In this document: in pieces, positions 946 through 10,854 of the stretch
Layout: each line of letters opens with the position of its first letter
Numbering within the stretch: the first letter of the stretch is position 1
DNA from: Bacteroidota bacterium
GTDB taxonomy: Bacteria > Bacteroidota > Bacteroidia > Chitinophagales > Chitinophagaceae
Length of the DNA: 21,879 nt
Reading direction: 5' to 3'
Assembly (NCBI GenBank): GCA_947461015.1
Contig: CANHIR010000012.1
Span: 1 to 21,879 of the forward strand
Position numbers and translations under genes: made by a program
The notes under the pieces: model-generated
The model's input: the letters and a program-made list of their open reading frames with translations, nothing else
Told to the model about the DNA's origin: nothing
Databases searched by the model: none

Positions 946-985
946 TATTTGAATTTTTAATTTCGCAGTAAGCTGTGAAATTTAT

Positions 986-1022
986 AAAAAGCACAATCAT
1001 AATGGTTGTGCTTTTTATTTTT
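986..1022 (+). terminator. Rho-independent terminator after the sugar isomerase gene
   Basis: The arms AAAAAGCACAA (986-996) and TTGTGCTTTTT (1006-1016) pair perfectly. The inner bases T-G, C-G and A-T extend the stem to 14 bp around a 3-nt loop. A T-rich tract follows. The hairpin lies inside the apparent N-terminal extension of the next reading frame, which argues against the GTG at 975 as that gene's start. Confidence 0.85.
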
Positions 1023-1055
1023 CCTAACTTTAAGAAATCATCTAAAGATTATTTT

Positions 1056-3308
1056 ATGAAGCATTTACGCCAAGGGTTTTCAGTTGTCTTATGTTTACTT
1101 ATTGTATATACAAGTTTTGGGCAAAAAGCAGAAAAGGAAAGATGGGAAAAACATGTTGCACAAACTAATATAATAAGAGACGAATGGGGCATCCCACATA
1201 TTTATGGAAAAACCGATGCAGATGCCATTTTTGGATTGATGTACGCGCAATGTGAAGAGAATTTTTCACAGATTGAAACCAACTATTTAGAAATGTTAGG
1301 TCGCAGTTCAGAAGCTCCCGTTTCAGGAATTGCTCAAATGCAAGGTGATGGGTATGCCGATTTAATGATGAAATTAATTCAGGATAGTGCCGAAGCGATT
1401 CATGATTTTGAGAGCAGTCCAAGCTGGTTTAAGAAATTATTAATTGCACACGCAGATGGGATAAATTATTATTTATATAAACATCCAGAAGTAAAGCCTA
1501 AAGTAATTCATCATTATCAACCTTGGTATCATTTAATGTGGACCGACGGCAGCGTTTCCCCAACACGCTATGGAGGAATAAGAAGAAAAGATGTATTTGA
1601 TTTTTATAAAACACAGGATGTAAGTTTGAGTGCAAATTTATTGAACACAACTTCTAATTGGGCAGGTATTGAAGATTACGCAGTTGAAGAAAAAACTTTA
1701 AAGGGTTCAAATGGTTTTGCAATTGCACCCAATCATAGTAAAAATGGCAACGCACTTTTATATATTAATCCACACGTTCCTTTTTACTTTAGATCAGAAA
1801 TGCATATGGTAAGCGAAGAAGGATTAAATGTTTACGGTGCTGTAACTTGGGGGCAAATGTTTATTTATCAAGGATTTAACGAGCATGCTGGCTGGATGCA
1901 TACTAGTAGTTATGCCGACGTTGCAGATGTGTATGCCGAAACAGTAAAACAAGAAAATGGCAAGTGGTTTTATTTGTACGATAACAAATGGATGCCTGTG
2001 ATTGAAAAGAAAATAAATATAGTTCATCCAACTAAATCGAAAATTTTTACCACTTATAAAACACATCATGGTCCTATTATGGGCAGCAAGGATGGAAAAT
2101 GGTTAAGCTTGCGTGAAAACAATCGTTCCTTAAACGCATTAATGGAATGTTGGACTAGAACGAAAGCGACAAATTTGAAGGAATACCAAGCAGCATTAAA
2201 TTTACTTGCAAATAATAGCAATAACACTGTTTATGCAGACGCGGATGGCAATATTGCATATTGGCATGGAAATTTTATGCCAAAACGAAGTAATGATTTT
2301 GATTTTACGCATCCTGTAGATGGAACTATTAAAGCTACCGATTGGCAAGGACTACATGGATTAAATGAAATTGTACAAAGTATTAATCCAGCAAATGGAT
2401 GGTTGCAAAATTGCAATGCAACGCCTTTCACAGTGGCTGGTACAAACAGTCCTAAAGAAATAGATTATCCAAAATACATGGCGCCTGATGGTGAAAATCC
2501 AAGAGGCTTAAACGCTGTTCGTTTACTTGAAAAAATAGATAAAATTAGTTTGGATGAATTAATTGCATTAGGATACAATAAACACTTAACAGCATTTGAT
2601 ATTTTATTACCTCCATTTATTGAATACTCAAAAACAGCAACATTAACTGAAGATCAAAAAAATGCAATAAACTATTTAGCAAATTGGAATCATGATGCAG
2701 ATACTAATTCCATTGCACAAACTATTGCTATTGAATGGGCTAGCAAATTAATGACAGCAATACCTCCCGCTGAAACCGAGGAAGCTGCAACTCAATCTAT
2801 TTTTAGGTTCAATAAAATAATTCAAGAAGTAAGCAATGAAAAAAAGTTAGCATTTCTTGATAGTGCACTAATGCGTATTAAAATTAATTACACAAATTTA
2901 CCAATGGCTCAAGCAAGTTGGGAGATACCCTGGGGTCAAATTAATAGATACCAGCGCGCACAGCCAAATACGGAATTTCCTTTTTCAGACAACAGACCTA
3001 GTATTGGAGTAGCGCAAACATCTTCAAAATTTGGACAGCTGCCTGCGTTTGAAAGTAACAGTAGAACAAATGGAGTGAAAAAAAGATACGGATTTTCTGG
3101 CAATAGCTTTATTGCTGCAGTTAGTTTTGGTAAAAAATTAGAAGCTAAAACAATTATAACAGGAGGCCAAAGCTTTGATCCTAATAATAAACATTTTACC
3201 GATCAAGCACAGGATTATATTGATGGTAAATTTAAAACCATTCACTTTTATAAAGAAGATGTTTTAGCGCATAAAGTAATATCATACAAACCAGGATTTG
3301 AAAGATAG
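1056..3308 (+). CDS. Secreted penicillin acylase family (peptidase S45) amidohydrolase
   Basis: This is an Ntn-hydrolase of the penicillin/acyl-homoserine-lactone/aculeacin acylase family, which cleaves amide bonds of acylated amines. The precursor is cut autocatalytically into alpha and beta chains; the new beta N-terminus is the nucleophile. Seen: signal peptide (residues 1-23, ending FGQ); the alpha-chain motif DEWGIPHIYG; the cleavage motif KGSNGFAIAP with the candidate nucleophile Ser218; NPHVPF; GWMHTSSYADVADVY; and NTVYADADGNIAY, which holds the likely oxyanion Asn. At 750 aa it is normal for the family. The ATG at 1056 is chosen because translation from the upstream GTG (975) would read through a terminator hairpin and put 27 residues before the signal peptide. 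The last 61 bases overlap the convergent regulator gene. Substrate is not predictable: a beta-lactam, acyl-homoserine lactone or N-acyl amino acid are all possible. Confidence 0.9.
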   Translation: MKHLRQGFSVVLCLLIVYTSFGQKAEKERWEKHVAQTNIIRDEWGIPHIYGKTDADAIFGLMYAQCEENFSQIETNYLEMLGRSSEAPVSGIAQMQGDGYADLMMKLIQDSAEAIHDFESSPSWFKKLLIAHADGINYYLYKHPEVKPKVIHHYQPWYHLMWTDGSVSPTRYGGIRRKDVFDFYKTQDVSLSANLLNTTSNWAGIEDYAVEEKTLKGSNGFAIAPNHSKNGNALLYINPHVPFYFRSEMHMVSEEGLNVYGAVTWGQMFIYQGFNEHAGWMHTSSYADVADVYAETVKQENGKWFYLYDNKWMPVIEKKINIVHPTKSKIFTTYKTHHGPIMGSKDGKWLSLRENNRSLNALMECWTRTKATNLKEYQAALNLLANNSNNTVYADADGNIAYWHGNFMPKRSNDFDFTHPVDGTIKATDWQGLHGLNEIVQSINPANGWLQNCNATPFTVAGTNSPKEIDYPKYMAPDGENPRGLNAVRLLEKIDKISLDELIALGYNKHLTAFDILLPPFIEYSKTATLTEDQKNAINYLANWNHDADTNSIAQTIAIEWASKLMTAIPPAETEEAATQSIFRFNKIIQEVSNEKKLAFLDSALMRIKINYTNLPMAQASWEIPWGQINRYQRAQPNTEFPFSDNRPSIGVAQTSSKFGQLPAFESNSRTNGVKKRYGFSGNSFIAAVSFGKKLEAKTIITGGQSFDPNNKHFTDQAQDYIDGKFKTIHFYKEDVLAHKVISYKPGFER

Positions 3309-3958
3309 TGATCATAGAGTTTAGAAATGAAGGCCATTTTCACAAGACCTGCCACATTCTTTACGTCAAACAATTGCATCATTTTAGTACGGTGACCTTC
3401 AACGGTTCTTTTGCTATGCCCTAATTCGGAAGCAATAATTTTACTTGGGGCTTCTTGACAAATTCTTATTAAAATGTATTTGTCATATAAACTAAGCTGA
3501 TGTACTTTATCCATTAATTGAACATCTTCCATCTTGTTTACCATTGTGGCAATTTTATTTGCAATTTCATTGCTAAAATATACTTTATCTTTCCTTGCCA
3601 TTTCTAATCCTTTTAGCCACTCCTCCTTACTTACATTTCTAGAAACAATTACCGAAAAACCATTTTCAATGAGTTGATATAAAATAAAATCATCCTGATC
3701 ATTCAATACAATCATGACAGGCACTTTTTTCTTTAGTAATTCAGAAAGGGCGAGATTTTGAGTTTGTGATATTTTAAACATGGCACTTTCAATAACAATC
3801 ACCTTAGGTGCAGCATGTATTGTAACTTCATTTAACATGCTAAAATGTTCAATAATATTTGGGGTTAAATAAGCTGGATGCTTATCAATGAGCATAGCAC
3901 TGCCCAATGCATAAACTGGTTGTTGATCACAAATGATTACCTGACTTTGCATATTCAT
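3248..3958 (-). CDS. LuxR/NarL-type response regulator with a degenerate receiver domain
   Basis: A transcription regulator with an N-terminal receiver-like domain (about 5-125) and a C-terminal GerE/LuxR helix-turn-helix (about 157-212; recognition region SKRTVEGHRTK). The receiver fold is recognisable (VIICD at strand 1, VIVIES at strand 3, GFSVIVSRNVS at strand 5), but its chemistry is altered. The phospho-acceptor Asp position holds Glu57, the conserved Thr/Ser position holds Asn86, the conserved Lys position holds Arg107, and only one acid remains at strand 1. It is therefore probably not controlled by ordinary phosphorylation. The start is ATG 3958; ATG 3952 is a close alternative. It is divergent from the ATP-grasp operon across 239 bp that contain direct repeats, so it may regulate that operon and itself (inference). 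Its 3' end overlaps the convergent acylase gene by 61 bp. No histidine kinase is adjacent. Confidence 0.85.
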   Translation of the reverse strand: MNMQSQVIICDQQPVYALGSAMLIDKHPAYLTPNIIEHFSMLNEVTIHAAPKVIVIESAMFKISQTQNLALSELLKKKVPVMIVLNDQDDFILYQLIENGFSVIVSRNVSKEEWLKGLEMARKDKVYFSNEIANKIATMVNKMEDVQLMDKVHQLSLYDKYILIRICQEAPSKIIASELGHSKRTVEGHRTKMMQLFDVKNVAGLVKMAFISKLYDHYLSNPGLYDITLCAKTSSL

Positions 3959-4197: not shown

Positions 4198-5322
4198 TTG
4201 ATAGCACTAAAAAAATTATTTTATCCATTTGTCCCTATTGGACATTTAAAGGTTTGGGTATTGGCTCCAGCATTAAATAATCCCGATCCTAATTTGGCCT
4301 ATTATTATGATTTTAGTCAAAGTATTGAAGAATATACTCAAGTATTTACAAACTTAGATTTACCCTGGAAATGGCAACCTGTAACATTGAATAGTTATGA
4401 GCGCATCATTCAAGAAATTGCCAATGAGCGACAAAATGGTGAGTTTTTCCCAGTGGTACTTAACTTATGTGATGGAGATGAAATAAATGGGGCGCCTGGT
4501 ATTTCGGTGATTCATGCATTAGATAAAAAACAACTTATTTACACGGGATCTGATTCCTATTTTTACCATATCACCACTTCAAAAATCCCAATGAAGCGGG
4601 CTTTTGATGATGCATTAATCCCAACACCAAAGTGGGAGGCAATTACAGCACCTAAGATTATTCCAGAAAAATTATTTGAAAATTTAAATACACCCATTAT
4701 TGTTAAGCCTGCCGTTTCGGGTGGAAGTTTAGGAGTGGGGGTGAAAAATGTTGTAGAAACAGAAAAAGAATTATTAACGCAGGTAAGTAAAATGTTTGAA
4801 GGGTATAGGGGATGGGACTTATCATCACAAGGTATCGTTGCAGAGTCCTTTATTGACGGTCCTGAGTATACTATTATGATTGTTGGCAGTCACATGCAAC
4901 CCGAGTATGCAAAAATATATCCACCAGTAGAACGTGTATTTCATGCTTCCTTACCAGCAAAAGAAAAATTTTTATCCTTTGATCGTCTTTGGGAAATTTA
5001 TGAAGAAGAAGCACCTATGCCCCAACAAGAAAATTTTTATGAGTATGCTATAGGCAATGAAACTACACAAATGGCAATTCAAAAAGTGGCATGGGATGCA
5101 TATGTAGCGGTGGGTGGAACTGGTTATACCAGAGTAGATGTAAGAATAGATAAAAATACAGGAACCCCTTATGTATTAGAAGTGAATGCGCAATGTGGCA
5201 TTAGCGAAGATGAAAATTTTACTTCTATCGGTGCAATTTTGCGTTATGCGAATCAAAGTTTTACCGAATTAATTATTCATATTATTAACGATGCATTTGC
5301 AAGAAGAAGAAAAATAAATTAA
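4198..5322 (+). CDS. ATP-grasp ligase, D-alanine-D-alanine ligase-like
   Basis: An ATP-grasp enzyme related to D-Ala-D-Ala ligase, a family that activates a carboxylate as acyl phosphate and joins it to an amine. Seen: an N-terminal pre-ATP-grasp region (about 17-130: KVWVLAPAL, LNLCDGDE, IYTGSDSYFY); the ATP-binding lysine motif IIVKPAVSGGSLGVG (Lys170); VAESFIDGPEYTIMI; and the metal/phosphate-binding end YTRVDVRID...VLEVNAQCG (Asp314, Glu328, Asn330). All key residues are present, so it should be active. It is not a standard Ddl: the substrate-side sequences differ, and it is paired with a paralogue starting 1 bp after its stop. No ATG precedes the conserved region; TTG 4198 is the best start, but the frame is open back to 4171 and the start is uncertain. 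The substrates are unknown. Confidence 0.82.
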   Translation: MIALKKLFYPFVPIGHLKVWVLAPALNNPDPNLAYYYDFSQSIEEYTQVFTNLDLPWKWQPVTLNSYERIIQEIANERQNGEFFPVVLNLCDGDEINGAPGISVIHALDKKQLIYTGSDSYFYHITTSKIPMKRAFDDALIPTPKWEAITAPKIIPEKLFENLNTPIIVKPAVSGGSLGVGVKNVVETEKELLTQVSKMFEGYRGWDLSSQGIVAESFIDGPEYTIMIVGSHMQPEYAKIYPPVERVFHASLPAKEKFLSFDRLWEIYEEEAPMPQQENFYEYAIGNETTQMAIQKVAWDAYVAVGGTGYTRVDVRIDKNTGTPYVLEVNAQCGISEDENFTSIGAILRYANQSFTELIIHIINDAFARRRKIN

Positions 5323-5323
5323 T

Positions 5324-6760
5324 ATGCGCTCCCTCCCTATTCTTGGTCAATCTGAGTCATTTGAAAATTTGAAAATTTGTGTTTTGCAGCCAGACTATTC
5401 AACCTCTGGTGTTGACTATCAATATTATGACCCCAAACGTGATTTATCTAAGTTGATGCCAGAAGCCCATATTGATCATATTTTTTTAAATAAGCTTACT
5501 ACCTATCAACAACTAAAACAATTAAAAGAAAAAGCATACGATATTTATATAAATCTTTGTGAAGGTTATTTAGAATGGAAAGTTCCCTCTATTGATGTTA
5601 TTACGAGCTTAGATTTGTTAGAGCTCCCCTATACTGGTCCTAGTGCCAATTTATACGATCCGGCAAAAACCATTATGAAGTACTTGGCTTTTTGTGAGGA
5701 CGTAAAAACACCAGCACATATTTTAATTGAAAACAAGGAGGACTTATCACAATTACCGGGGAATTTGCAGTTTCCCTTATTTATAAAACCAGCAAAGGCA
5801 GGTGACAGTCTTGGTGTTGACGATGCGAGTAAAGCAAACAATACGGCCAGCCTAAATACAAAGGTTAAAAATATATTATCGGAATTTGGTTCGGCATTAG
5901 TAGAAGAATATATTGAGGGCAGAGAATTCACTGTACTCGTATGTGCTAATCCAGATGGAAAAACCTGCACTCGATTCATGCCCGTTGAATATATTTTCCC
6001 AGACGGCTTTGCTTTCAAAACTTACGCATTAAAAACATCGGAGCTTCACCCCAATGCAAATATTCCGGTGACGGATAAAATACTTGCCAAAAAATTACAA
6101 GACATTGGAGAACAAATATTTATGTCATTTAATGGGGTAGGATACGGTAGAATGGATTTTAGAATGAATGAAAAAGGAGAAATATTTTTCTTAGAAATAA
6201 ATTTCACCTGTTCTGTTTTTTACGCAGAAGGATACGAAGGATCTGCTGATTATATTTTACAACATGACGGAGCTGGACAAAGGGGTTTTTTAGAAAGAAT
6301 TATTATTGAGGGTATGGCCAGATTTGAACGTAAGCAAAAAAAATATACCATCAAGGGGAATGCAATTTCCGGATATGGAATGTATGCAAAGTTTAATTTA
6401 CCCAAAGGCACTTTGCTATTTAAAGGGGAAGAAAAAGCGCAACGCATTGTTACCAAAAAATTCGTAGACGATAATTGGGACGATCGCGAAAAAAATTATT
6501 TCAGACGTTATGCTTACCCCATAGGTAACGACGTTTATATTTTATGGGCACTAGAGCCTGAAGAGTGGTCACCACAGAACCATCATTGCGACGCCAATTG
6601 TGAATATGAAGGTTTAAATGTGTTTACCAACAGGGATATTAAAAAAGGAGAAGAGCTAACATTAGATTATGCTTATTTTTTAGATCATACTATGGAACCT
6701 TTTTCATGCGCATGCAGTTCTCCAAATTGTAGAGGTTTGATAAAAGGGAATAAAAAGTAA
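5324..6760 (+). CDS. ATP-grasp ligase fused to a SET/post-SET methyltransferase domain
   Basis: A two-enzyme fusion of 478 aa. Residues 1 to about 335 form a D-Ala-D-Ala-ligase-like ATP-grasp module, paralogous to the preceding gene: LPYTGPSANLYD, FIKPAKAGDSLGV (Lys155), ALVEEYIEGREFTV, YGRMDFRMN and FLEINF (Asp278, Glu291, Asn293). Residues about 341-478 form a SET domain: ISGYGMYAKFNLPKG (348-361, SAM-binding start), NHHCDANC (419-426, the NHxCxxNC motif), GEELTLDYAYF (443-452, catalytic-type Tyr449), then a post-SET motif with Cys462, Cys464 and Cys469 (CxCxxxxCRG). With Cys422 these match the zinc-binding cysteines of lysine methyltransferases. Both halves keep their key residues. The ATG lies 1 bp after the upstream stop, so the two genes are surely co-transcribed and probably translationally coupled. 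The likely role (inference) is amide ligation plus N-methylation of a protein, peptide or small amine. Confidence 0.85.
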   Translation: MRSLPILGQSESFENLKICVLQPDYSTSGVDYQYYDPKRDLSKLMPEAHIDHIFLNKLTTYQQLKQLKEKAYDIYINLCEGYLEWKVPSIDVITSLDLLELPYTGPSANLYDPAKTIMKYLAFCEDVKTPAHILIENKEDLSQLPGNLQFPLFIKPAKAGDSLGVDDASKANNTASLNTKVKNILSEFGSALVEEYIEGREFTVLVCANPDGKTCTRFMPVEYIFPDGFAFKTYALKTSELHPNANIPVTDKILAKKLQDIGEQIFMSFNGVGYGRMDFRMNEKGEIFFLEINFTCSVFYAEGYEGSADYILQHDGAGQRGFLERIIIEGMARFERKQKKYTIKGNAISGYGMYAKFNLPKGTLLFKGEEKAQRIVTKKFVDDNWDDREKNYFRRYAYPIGNDVYILWALEPEEWSPQNHHCDANCEYEGLNVFTNRDIKKGEELTLDYAYFLDHTMEPFSCACSSPNCRGLIKGNKK

Positions 6761-6810
6761 ATAAGCGTATTGGAAAATTTCATACATTCAAAGAATCATA
6801 AAACGACCTA

Positions 6811-7587
6811 ATGAAAAAATTATTCGCTAGCTTATTGGTATGTACAATTATTTCTTTCTCAGCCAATGCACAGGCAAAATTTAAAAATTATCAAGATAGT
6901 ATTGATGCTGAAGCAGCAAAATCAGAAATATGGACAACCGTTCCAGTAGTAACGCCAGGCAGTTTTACAAACCAAGCACCTTCCGATGCTATTATTTTAT
7001 ATAATGGAAAGGACTTTTCTGCTTTTCATGGTCGAGATGGCAAAAAAATTGGTTGGAAAATTGATCCAGATGGTGCTTTAACAGACGTAAAGGGCGCAGG
7101 AGATTTAATTACCAATCAAGCATTCGGTGATTGTCAATTACATGTTGAGTTTAGAACTCCAGCAATGGTGAAAGGAGAAGGGCAGTCAAGAGGCAATAGT
7201 GGCATCTATTTAATGGGTTTATATGAAATACAAGTACTAGACTCTTATAAAAATCCTACCTATGCAAATGGTCAAGCTGCTGCAGTTTATAAACAACATA
7301 TTCCATTGGTAAATGCAAGCCGAGCACCTGGGCAATGGCAGGCATATGATATTATTTTTAAAGCCCCCGTATTTAAGCAAGATGGTAACCTAGAAAAACC
7401 AGCCACCGTTACAGTTTTACACAATGGTGTATTGGTTCAAAATAATGTAACCATAATTGGCCCAACCGACTGGGTTATAAAGCCAGTTTATAAAAAACAT
7501 GATGCAAAGTTACCCTTGTTCTTTCAAGATCATGGAGATGATGGCAATCCAATAAGTTATCGAAATATTTGGATTAGACCTTTATAA
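6811..7587 (+). CDS. Secreted DUF1080 (3-keto-disaccharide hydrolase-like) protein
   Basis: A DUF1080 protein, concanavalin-like jelly-roll fold; characterised members hydrolyse 3-keto-glycosides. Seen: signal peptide (residues 1-20, SANAQ cleavage), then the family's hallmarks: IILYNGKDFSAFHGRDG, GDLITNQAFGDCQLHVEFRTP, RGNSGIYLMGLYEIQVLDS, GQAAAVYKQHIPLVNASR, GQWQAYDIIFKAP, VTVLHNGVLVQ and IWIRPL at the C-terminus. 258 aa is a full single-domain length. It starts 50 bp after the SET fusion with no visible terminator between, so it might be read from that operon, but functional linkage is doubtful. It fits with the sugar isomerase-like protein earlier in the window and the FucP-type transporter later. 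Confidence 0.9.
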   Translation: MKKLFASLLVCTIISFSANAQAKFKNYQDSIDAEAAKSEIWTTVPVVTPGSFTNQAPSDAIILYNGKDFSAFHGRDGKKIGWKIDPDGALTDVKGAGDLITNQAFGDCQLHVEFRTPAMVKGEGQSRGNSGIYLMGLYEIQVLDSYKNPTYANGQAAAVYKQHIPLVNASRAPGQWQAYDIIFKAPVFKQDGNLEKPATVTVLHNGVLVQNNVTIIGPTDWVIKPVYKKHDAKLPLFFQDHGDDGNPISYRNIWIRPL

Positions 7588-7606
7588 ATAATTTAAATTT
7601 TTGCAT

Positions 7607-8332
7607 ATGGGTAAAATGCATGTACCAGAATTTATAGCACCTTTCTCCCCTTTTTGGTGGGAATGTATATTAGCTGTTACACTCATTATTATTATCCTCG
7701 TTCGCCTACCATTGCATTGGAAAAATTTAAAGCGACGCAATTATGATTTGTTTATTGCTTGCATTTTATTGCTAAATACCGTTGCCGAAAATTGGTACAA
7801 CTATTCTATTGGATATTGGACCTTACAACAAAACTTGCCAATACATCTTTGTAGTATCACCAATATACTATGTATTGTATTGCTCTTTAATTATAAGCAA
7901 TGGATAGCGGAGCTTGTTTATTATTGGGGACTAGCTGGAGGTATTCAATCCTTGCTAACTCCTGAATTTACAATTGGAATGCGTGGCTATAATTTTTATA
8001 GCTACTTTATAAATCATGGAGGTTTAATATTAGTCGTAGCCTATATAATTGTGCATTATGAATTTACCCCAAGACCCAAATCTTGGTTATGGACACTTGC
8101 CTATTTGCAAATTGTGGTTATTATTGTTGGCTTGATTAATCATTTTGTAGACGCCAATTATATGTACTTATCAAATAAACCCGAGGTCGAAAATCCATTT
8201 GTAATTGGGGAATGGCCTTATTATATTTTGATATTAGAGTTAGTAGCGTTATTGCACTTTATTATTTTCTATCTTCCTTTTTATTTTCTAAATAAAAGGA
8301 AAATGTCGCTTGATAAAATTGAAGTAAATTAA
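7607..8332 (+). CDS. TIGR02206/YwaF family integral membrane protein
   Basis: A polytopic inner-membrane protein with about six to seven hydrophobic helices, matching the TIGR02206 (YwaF, TMEM164-like) family. Seen: an N-terminal FSPFWWE segment followed by a long hydrophobic helix, the motif LPIHLCSITNIL (the His-Leu-Cys signature of the family), YYWGLAGGIQSLLTPE, and YFINHGGLIL with a second conserved His. Human TMEM164 relatives are lipid acyltransferases that use a cysteine; the role in bacteria is not established. ATG 7607 is preferred to the in-frame TTG at 7601. It lies 19 bp after the DUF1080 gene, so co-transcription is likely. Its 3' end is 7 bp from the convergent HAD gene. Confidence 0.8.
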   Translation: MGKMHVPEFIAPFSPFWWECILAVTLIIIILVRLPLHWKNLKRRNYDLFIACILLLNTVAENWYNYSIGYWTLQQNLPIHLCSITNILCIVLLFNYKQWIAELVYYWGLAGGIQSLLTPEFTIGMRGYNFYSYFINHGGLILVVAYIIVHYEFTPRPKSWLWTLAYLQIVVIIVGLINHFVDANYMYLSNKPEVENPFVIGEWPYYILILELVALLHFIIFYLPFYFLNKRKMSLDKIEVN

Positions 8333-8760: not shown

Positions 8761-10854
8761 ATGTTCCAATTCTTAAAAAACTTTGCTGGCCTTTTTTCAT
8801 TTGTATTATTTTCAATGCTTGCAAATGCACAGGTATCTAGCAACCCCACCATTAACGTAAATAAAATAACCATTGCAAGAGATTCCTTTGGTGTGCCGCA
8901 TATATTTGCACCTACCGATCCTGAAGTGGCTTATGGAATCGCATGGGCACATGCCGAAGATGATTTCACCACCATACAAACCTTACTTTTAACTGGGAAG
9001 GGCAAACTTTCTTCCTATTTAGGTAAAAAAGGAGCACCTGTTGATTTTGTTGTTGGCTTGTTAAATACCAAGGCATTGGTAGAAGCACAGATAGGACAAA
9101 TGGACCCTAAATTTCTAGCCTTAGTCAAAGGTTATTTAATGGGATTAGAAGCCTATGCAAAGGCGCATCCAAAGGAAGTATTAAATAAACAGGTATTCCC
9201 TATTTCCATTGAAGAATATTTATCGGCAACTGTATTTTCTGTTGCAGTATTTTGTGGTGTAGATAAAACATTGCCAAAAATTTTAAACGGAACCATTCCA
9301 CAACTAGCAGGATTTACTGGCGAGGGAAGCAACACGTTTGCAATTCATGCCAATAAGTCAAGCACAGGTGAAAACATGTTGGTTATAAATGCACATCAGC
9401 CTATCGAAGGGGCAACTGCCTTTTATGAAGCACATTTGCAAAGTGAAGAAGGATGGAATATTTTAGGCGGATTGTTTCCAGGTGCCCCATTAATTTTTCA
9501 TGGTGTTACGCCCAATTTTGCATGGGCACATACCGTAAATTTTCAAGATAAAATAGATGTGTATCAATTACAAACTGACAAAGCGCATCCTGGTGAATAT
9601 AAAGTGGATGGCAACTGGTTGAAACTTGAGAAAAGAAAAGTGAAATTAAAAATCAAAGGAATTCCATTTCCAATTTATAGAAAAGTATACAATTCAATTT
9701 ATGGGCCAACTGTAGCTACACCAAATGGCGAATATTTTTCTATGCGATTGCCATCCTTAATGGATGCAGGCGCATTGCAACAGTGGTATACAATGAATAA
9801 GGCTAATAATTTTACAAGTTTCAAAAAAGCATTAGCGCAAAATCACTTGCCTATGTTTAATATCATGTATGCCGACAATAAGGATACGATATTTTATATT
9901 TCTAATGGAAAAATGCCTTACCGAAATCCAGATACATCCTATCATTGGAATAGTACTGTACCAGGTAATACCATGGCAACTTTATGGACAAAATTTAAGC
10001 CTTTAAGTGAACTGCCTCAACAGTTAAATCCAGCAAGTGGTTATTTATTTAATACCAACCATTCCCCATTTTTAGCAACAGACGAAAAATATAATTTAGA
10101 CCCGAAAAGTTTTGATGTGAATGATGGTTATGAAACTTATCACAACAACAGAAGTCGCCGAGGAAAGGATTTGATTGATGAATTAGATAAAATTAGTTAC
10201 GCCGATTTAAAACGTATAAAATTTGATAGAAGCCTTCCTGCTAAAATATTATTCCCGTATGGTTTTACTGCAGATAGTATGTTTTTGGTAAATGAAAATA
10301 ATTACCCAGCACTAGCGCCCATTATTTCAACATTAAAGCAATGGGATCATGCAGCAGTGGCGAATAGCAAAGGTGCTGCCATTTATAATATTGCTTATTA
10401 CTTGGTGCCTCAAGTAATGGATGGACGCAAAAATGATAAACTAACTTTACAAGAAGCAGTGATCGTGTATGAAAAAATAGACGAATACCTTAAGAAAAAT
10501 TTTGGAAGAACCGACATAGTCTTAGGCGACTTACAAAAATTAGTAAGAGGTGATGAAAGTTGGCCGCAAGGTGGCATGCCAGATGTATTAGCAGCAGTGA
10601 TGAGTGAACCCTATAAGGATGGAACTAGAAAAATGAATAGTGGTGACGCTTATATTAACATTGTAAGTTTTCCAAAAGATGGTAGCCTGCCGCATATTGA
10701 AACAATCAACACATTTGGTGCAAGTATGCATAAAGAAAGTCCTCATTTTGCGGATCAACGCGCCATGTATCAGGCTCAGATGTTAAAACCAATGACGCTT
10801 GACAAAAATGCAATTCTGAAAAATGCTGAAAAAATTTATCATCCAGCTTTGTAA
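8761..10854 (+). CDS. Second secreted penicillin acylase family (S45) amidohydrolase
   Basis: A 697-aa Ntn-hydrolase precursor, paralogous to the S45 protein at the start of the window but clearly diverged. Seen: signal peptide (residues 1-24, MLANAQ end); the alpha-chain motif RDSFGVPHIFAPTDPE and YGIAWAHAEDDF; the autocleavage site GEGSNTFAIHANKS with nucleophile Ser190; INAHQP; the beta-chain motif FAWAHTVNFQDKIDVYQ; and MFNIMYADNKDTIFY with the oxyanion Asn. Known relatives deacylate N-acyl homoserine lactones, penicillins or cyclic lipopeptides; substrate is unknown here. The ATG at 8761 gives the signal peptide directly. It is transcribed alone, ending at the hairpin at 10914-10947. Confidence 0.9.
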   Translation: MFQFLKNFAGLFSFVLFSMLANAQVSSNPTINVNKITIARDSFGVPHIFAPTDPEVAYGIAWAHAEDDFTTIQTLLLTGKGKLSSYLGKKGAPVDFVVGLLNTKALVEAQIGQMDPKFLALVKGYLMGLEAYAKAHPKEVLNKQVFPISIEEYLSATVFSVAVFCGVDKTLPKILNGTIPQLAGFTGEGSNTFAIHANKSSTGENMLVINAHQPIEGATAFYEAHLQSEEGWNILGGLFPGAPLIFHGVTPNFAWAHTVNFQDKIDVYQLQTDKAHPGEYKVDGNWLKLEKRKVKLKIKGIPFPIYRKVYNSIYGPTVATPNGEYFSMRLPSLMDAGALQQWYTMNKANNFTSFKKALAQNHLPMFNIMYADNKDTIFYISNGKMPYRNPDTSYHWNSTVPGNTMATLWTKFKPLSELPQQLNPASGYLFNTNHSPFLATDEKYNLDPKSFDVNDGYETYHNNRSRRGKDLIDELDKISYADLKRIKFDRSLPAKILFPYGFTADSMFLVNENNYPALAPIISTLKQWDHAAVANSKGAAIYNIAYYLVPQVMDGRKNDKLTLQEAVIVYEKIDEYLKKNFGRTDIVLGDLQKLVRGDESWPQGGMPDVLAAVMSEPYKDGTRKMNSGDAYINIVSFPKDGSLPHIETINTFGASMHKESPHFADQRAMYQAQMLKPMTLDKNAILKNAEKIYHPAL

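Follow-up and report, generated by a model that had tools for sequence, protein, structure and literature searches.

The stretch of DNA analysed here (the window, 21,879 nucleotides of contig CANHIR010000012.1 from a Bacteroidota bacterium of the family Chitinophagaceae) carries two adjacent genes, which we call A and B, with a single base between the stop of A and the start of B (Table 1). Both encode ATP-grasp ligases resembling the D-alanine-D-alanine ligase Ddl, and the product of B continues into a SET domain and a post-SET motif. Within B, the Pfam ligase family PF07478 covers residues 137-293 (6.3e-21) and the SET family PF00856 covers residues 350-449 (6.7e-11; 43.0 bits against a gathering cut-off of 22.4), with NHHC at residues 419-422, the SET tyrosine at Y449 and the post-SET CxCx4C at C462, C464 and C469. 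By homology, K155, E194, D278, E291 and N293 would be the residues that bind ATP and magnesium, while comparison with known SET enzymes makes it likely that the three post-SET cysteines form a zinc site together with C422. The predicted structure of B has a pLDDT of 89.7 and a pTM of 0.88, and the best 50 rows of a fold search with the whole model were all Ddl-type ligases, which speaks for the ligase half alone. An earlier note on this DNA had described two paralogous Ddl-like genes 1 bp apart, the second joining a ligase to a complete SET domain and a post-SET zinc motif. The coordinates, the PF07478 matches in both proteins and the tree described below agree with the first part of this description, and the Pfam matches and residue positions in B are as the second part has them.

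Table 1. Genes and domains of the A-B locus and its surroundings, in window coordinates
Feature	Position	Strand	Description	Domain evidence
Gene A	4198..5322	+	374-aa Ddl-like ATP-grasp amide ligase, TTG start, without SET	PF07478, 3.2e-16
Gene B	5324..6760	+	478-aa fusion of ATP-grasp ligase, SET and post-SET	PF07478 and PF00856 in one frame
B, ATP-grasp half	5324..6325	+	approximately residues 1-334; conserved cysteines C79 and C296	
B, SET domain	6371..6670	+	residues 350-449; NHHC; catalytic-site Y449	PF00856
B, post-SET cysteines	6707..6730	+	C462, C464, C469	
LuxR-type regulator gene	3248..3958	-	divergent from A; context only	GerE, PF00196
Penicillin-amidase-like Ntn hydrolase, upstream	975..3308	+	lineage-specific neighbour; context only	PF01804
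Second penicillin-amidase-like Ntn hydrolase, downstream	8761..10854	+	context only	PF01804

The joining of ligase and SET domain in B is not a sequencing or assembly error, because the homologues listed in protein database searches carry both domains. With B as the query there were 4779 relatives at E <= 1e-3 among 8000 scored, and both Pfam domains are present in all of the best 120, for which domain content is known. With a divergent fusion (L089) as the query there were 3191 relatives at E <= 1e-30 among 8000 scored, and 119 of the best 120 listed carry both domains, P0177 being without a SET annotation; pooled, 239 of the 240 homologues among the matches listed combine ATP-grasp and SET. 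The residues of the two active sites are equally well preserved, with K155, E194, R276, D278, E291 and N293 in the ATP-grasp half, and H420, C422, Y449, C462, C464 and C469 in the SET and post-SET part, invariant in 50/50 aligned fusions. Thus neither homologues that always lack the SET half, nor a join at the fusion point created by error, nor a loss of the SET catalytic residues, each of which the earlier note had named as fatal to its claims, was found among the members listed. Since the catalytic residues of both halves are invariant, the ligase and the SET enzyme of the fusion are both very probably active.

The fusion was also said to be unusual, and this holds in a relative sense. Full-length fusions occur in 17 of 395 genomes sampled across the phylum, from five families and with nine of the 17 in one genus, while 130 of the 395 match B at E <= 1e-10, mostly through the ATP-grasp half alone. 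Within the window's own family, by contrast, 59 of 195 genomes carry B. Names among the listed matches to the divergent fusion include Rubricoccaceae, Rhodothermales, Longimicrobiales/Gemmatimonadota and Thermoanaerobaculia, and some listed family members are annotated as ‘SET domain-containing protein-lysine N-methyltransferase’.

A and B are, as judged from their sequences, paralogues. In a midpoint-rooted tree, for which the program gave a long-branch warning, a branch with 100/99 support separates A and the ligase half of B from four Ddl proteins and 14 other tandem ATP-grasps. Two loop cysteines are common to both paralogues, represented by C79 and C296 of B (in 50/50 and 49/50 aligned fusions, respectively) and by C91 and C333 of A (both in 25/25 A proteins).

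Comparison across genomes places A and B in a three-gene unit with SET2, a further SET gene, unfused and coding for about 160-200 aa, that is found beside A-B in other genomes of the family. Among the 195 family genomes, B is present in 59, A in 60 and SET2 in 58; A accompanies B in 59/59, B and SET2 occur together in 56, and 134 genomes have none of the three. Counted over the 101 genera of this sample, the figures are 37 for B, 37 for A and 36 for SET2. An exact test on the co-occurrence gives p = 1e-42, a value that ignores shared descent and of which only the underlying pattern is to be used. B occurs without SET2 in the window genome (G000, a 71% complete assembly searched at E <= 1e-8), in G587 (60% complete) and in G571, where A starts 85 bp from the contig end; SET2 occurs without B in G565, where A is also present but truncated at the edge of its contig, and in G567, where neither A nor B accompanies SET2, which lies 848 bp from the contig edge. 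The phylum sample gives a similar picture: 15 of its 395 genomes have SET2 at E <= 1e-20, and 14 of these 15 also carry the fusion, which is missing from G259. Conversely, three of the 17 fusion genomes (G000, G211 and G340) gave no SET2 match at this threshold.

This association extends to an operon structure. At a further 38 B-containing loci of the family, A is present at all 38 and immediately precedes B at 35; SET2 is present at 33, and at 30 of these it immediately precedes A. One genus from a different family shows the order SET2-B-ABC exporter-SET3, without A, at 6/6 loci fetched from its nine fusion genomes, the exporter domains having been verified in three. In genome G212 there is a 4-bp overlap between SET2 and A at one locus, with B located elsewhere. 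In the window's lineage the A-B pair has no SET2 beside it and usually lies close to two Ntn amidohydrolase genes. Where SET2 was found in these genomes, it maps elsewhere: 12 of the 23 genomes reached through window-type loci give a strong SET2 match, and in the nine that were fetched SET2 lies away from A-B. Because G212 and the genomes of the window lineage separate parts of the unit in this way, linkage of SET2 to A-B is not needed.

An ABC-type membrane gene (PF13748, one copy scanned) lies directly 3' of B at 16 of the 38 family loci. At E <= 1e-25 it is present in 25 of the 195 family genomes, namely 24 with B and G565, which has A and SET2 but no B, and all 25 also have A; it was not found in the incomplete assembly of the window genome. 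The confinement of this gene to unit-bearing genomes of the family sample suggests that the product of the unit is diffusible.

The nearest solved relatives of SET2 point in a similar direction. Against all solved chains of the PDB, a SET2 profile finds BurB at 6.2e-20 over 126 positions, followed by ASH1L at 1.1e-8 over 63, and two single SET2 sequences agree with the profile that BurB is the closest solved relative. The NHxC motif, the tyrosine and the post-SET cysteines are kept in 14/14 aligned SET2 sequences. According to the available part of PMC12542666, BurB methylates free methionine to S-methylmethionine and contacts the methionine mainly via main-chain atoms; because of this mode of binding, the substrate of SET2 is not readable from side chains. 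The fused SET domain of B is less clearly placed. As a single sequence it matches BurB at 4.1e-8 over its last 58 residues and KMT2D at 6.1e-8 over nearly the whole domain, and as a profile it matches BurB, again in the last part only, at 6.2e-15 versus 1.7e-13 for lysine methyltransferases.

Taken together, these observations enabled us to propose a model, which we regard as somewhat probable, in which methylation of a free amino acid by SET2 is followed by ligation through A and B and a further methylation by the SET domain of B, and a small product is exported. In this model SET2, whose gene immediately precedes A in most relatives beyond the window lineage, would transfer a methyl group from S-adenosylmethionine (SAM) to a free amino acid or a comparable small metabolite. 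Amide bonds would be formed by A and by the ATP-grasp half of B, both of which would use ATP and magnesium to convert a carboxylate into an acyl-phosphate before coupling it to an amine, so that a product resembling a di- or tripeptide results. The SET domain of B may add methyl groups to the substrate or the product of its own ligase half, and the ABC-type membrane protein encoded after B in some relatives may export the result. A bolder version, in which SET2-A-B is an undescribed system where SET2 yields an amino acid that is N-methylated or turned into a sulfonium, the ligases incorporate it into a short peptide, the fused SET domain methylates it again and the peptide is exported, is in our view tentative. 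The earlier note had suggested that N-methylation might follow the formation of an amide-linked product by the ligases. The first half of this suggestion is strengthened by the linked, BurB-like SET2 and by the membrane gene; N-methylation specifically is not, the nearest solved relative of SET2 being an S-methyltransferase and the fused SET domain standing about equally near BurB and the protein-lysine methyltransferases.

Several observations weigh against the small-product model. G211 and G340 have B with no separate SET2 match in the genome and no A nearby, therefore B can act without SET2 and A, and no strong SET2 match was obtained in 11 of the 23 genomes reached via window-type loci. 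The co-occurrence counts are uncorrected for shared descent, a point of particular relevance in the phylum sample, where a single genus supplies nine of the 17 fusion genomes. The membrane gene follows B directly at just the 16 of 38 loci given above, it is present in 24 of the 59 family genomes with B and was not found in the other 35, and the single copy scanned is without an ATPase domain. Finally, the fused SET domain aligns over nearly its full length with KMT2D and SETD2 and over only 58 residues with BurB, and on this alignment a protein or peptidyl-lysine substrate for the SET domain of B is possible.

This last point leads to the strongest of the alternatives, namely that a protein receives amino acids from A and B and is methylated, on itself or on the added tag, by the SET domain, as a bacterial parallel to the modification of tubulin tails. 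The earlier note had offered much the same reading as its second proposal, with the SET domain acting on a protein extended by the ligases. In addition to the near end-to-end alignment with KMT2D and SETD2, TTLL12 unites SET-like and ATP-grasp TTL-like domains in eukaryotes, and at one locus (L088) a MATCAP-family carboxypeptidase gene (PF08014) lies two genes from B. However, that carboxypeptidase is a neighbour at this locus only, and TTLL12 is described in the available part of PMC3520985 as lacking critical residues in both domains, which moreover stand in the opposite order. The ligase half of B has the Ddl fold, its partner SET2 is nearest to an enzyme acting on a free amino acid, and a membrane gene found only with the unit suggests a diffusible product. 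The conserved neighbour that the earlier note had proposed to look for as the substrate did not emerge either: among 57 loci, mostly of other lineages, no conserved substrate gene was seen, the commonest neighbours other than A, B, SET2 and the membrane gene (20/57) being helicase-like (16/57) and MnmG (14/57) genes, which look like general gene order. Likewise, no conserved precursor peptide, as expected of a graspetide or other RiPP system, was seen among small open reading frames (25-90 aa, within 2 kb, BLAST 1e-4; remote genes not looked for), whose largest group spans 8 of 95 loci, a negative tempered by the fact that precursors can be too variable for detection. Taking both sides together, we consider protein modification unlikely.

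A lysine-based product, in which lysine would be the substrate and the SET domains would methylate its epsilon amine, is suggested by analogy with another set of loci. Seven Bacteroidota loci (L096-L102), selected for tandem matches in the phylum search, have SET-free pairs of Ddl-like ligase genes, after which come a radical SAM gene resembling lysine-2,3-aminomutase (7/7) and, in most, a GNAT gene (6/7); genes were called by similarity there, with Pfam run on one locus. These loci probably represent another unexplored product pathway. SET enzymes commonly methylate lysine, which also counts in favour of a lysine substrate. In the tree, however, the tandem pairs without SET group with Ddl and not with A and B, so that the analogy is not one by descent, and BurB, the relative of SET2, acts on the sulfur of methionine. 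Descent of lysine chemistry from the aminomutase loci is therefore unsupported, and a lysine-based product is kept as a rival of rather low probability.

The relationship of A and B to Ddl itself bears on whether they act on the cell wall. Against TIGR01205, A scores 79.4 and B 80.8 bits, far below the cut-off of 245.65, and a separate gene above this cut-off, a true Ddl, is present in 10/10 genomes tested (at C48:6410-7372 in the window genome), which rules out A and B as the housekeeping cell-wall enzyme. When aligned with three Bacteroidota Ddl proteins, at low identities of approximately 20-35%, A and B are without the N-terminal Ddl motif and have NLC(D/E)G in place of the HGxPGED loop. 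The NxxPG substrate-loop motif, retained as NTxPG in the three Ddl proteins, is replaced by NxxC (NAQCG in A, NFTCS in B), at a position where the tandem ATP-grasps without SET have NPNPD/NPLPG. Therefore, a role in a branch of cell-wall synthesis, with the pair supplying peptidoglycan with a modified dipeptide or depsipeptide precursor, as might be suggested by the D-Ala-D-Ala and D-Ala-D-Lac ligases being the closest solved relatives of both proteins, is improbable given the TIGR01205 scores, the separate Ddl genes, the replaced motifs and a methylation without a clear role in the wall.

The surroundings of A-B in the window are largely particular to its lineage. The LuxR-type gene is retained at 35 of 40 window-type loci with a full-length B and had no match in the 57 mostly other-lineage loci, four of which are shared with the 40. 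A penicillin-amidase-like gene lies upstream at 31, downstream at 29 and on both sides at 24 of the 40 window-type loci, some of whose contigs end early, and again had no match in the 57, so these hydrolases are ruled out as members of the unit; they may act on its product or be unrelated. Just downstream of A-B, at 7601-8332, lies a gene for an integral membrane protein of the TMEM164 family (TIGR02206, 141 bits). The window genome also encodes, in a different context, a second SET protein of 128 aa without the post-SET CxCx4C (L001:1450-1836, minus strand).

A few other loci combine SET proteins with other enzymes. At L088 (5135-13910) the fusion lies near genes for an N-formylglutamate amidohydrolase (PF05013), the MATCAP-type carboxypeptidase and a gamma-glutamyltranspeptidase (PF01019), and at L211 (5737-8020, minus strand), in the fusion-free genome G259, a SET2-like gene stands beside a gamma-glutamyltranspeptidase gene (PF01019). 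We do not generalise a MATCAP or gamma-glutamyl theme from L088 and L089, because MATCAP was seen at one locus and gamma-glutamyltranspeptidase near the fusion only at L088, and the family concerned has the fusion in 1 of 77 genomes. At L210, a 617-aa protein (6465-8318, minus strand) combines SET, S-adenosylmethionine decarboxylase and spermidine synthase domains by Pfam. Its gene adjoins one for a 483-aa protein (4989-6440, minus strand) with an N-terminal SET domain and a C-terminal half that is ATP-grasp-like by motif only, with no Pfam ligase match, in the reverse of the domain order of B.

SET domains are familiar chiefly as lysine methyltransferases of histones and other proteins. The existence of a family in which a SET domain is joined to a dipeptide-ligase fold and co-inherited with SET2, itself a relative of BurB, makes small-molecule substrates and products of bacterial SET enzymes directly testable. 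The fusion of SET with AdoMet decarboxylase and spermidine synthase at L210 indicates that SET has been joined to small-molecule enzymes at least once more. If the bolder version of the model holds, the unit would make methylated peptides of a new metabolite class, distributed across several phyla, and its SET enzymes would serve purely in small-molecule tailoring. Looking forward, the compactness of the unit, with its three genes in one run at 30 of 38 loci, makes it transferable to a laboratory strain.

Among the matches listed from the open literature there was no ATP-grasp/SET fusion besides TTLL12 and none from bacteria, and the available parts of descriptions of CDC123 and of graspetide ATP-grasp enzymes do not mention a SET fusion. 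TTLL12 shares with B the presence of SET-like and ATP-grasp (TTL) domains in one polypeptide; in what is available of its description, however, it is eukaryotic, its SET-like domain is N-terminal whereas that of B is C-terminal, its ligase is of the TTL and not the Ddl type, and critical residues are reportedly absent. The KMT2 and SETD2 enzymes resemble the SET part of B in their SET and post-SET architecture, with NHxC, DY, zinc cysteines and an alignment of nearly full length, but B fuses this part to a ligase of small-molecule type and has no chromatin or histone context. Ddl (TIGR01205/PF07478) shares with B the fold of its ligase half and an ATP-grasp with ATP and magnesium residues, and differs from A and B in its place above the curated cut-off and in its substrate-loop motifs, where A and B have conserved cysteines, as well as in the absence of the SET fusion seen in B. 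The tandem ATP-grasp, aminomutase-like and GNAT loci of Bacteroidota likewise set two adjacent Ddl-like ATP-grasps beside tailoring enzymes, although they arose by a separate duplication in the tree and are without SET. BurB (9l4t), which the available part of PMC12542666 does not describe with ATP-grasp ligases, is closely comparable to SET2, both being stand-alone SET and post-SET proteins of about 170 aa with Y-x-S-T-E and C-x-C-x(4)-C stretches.

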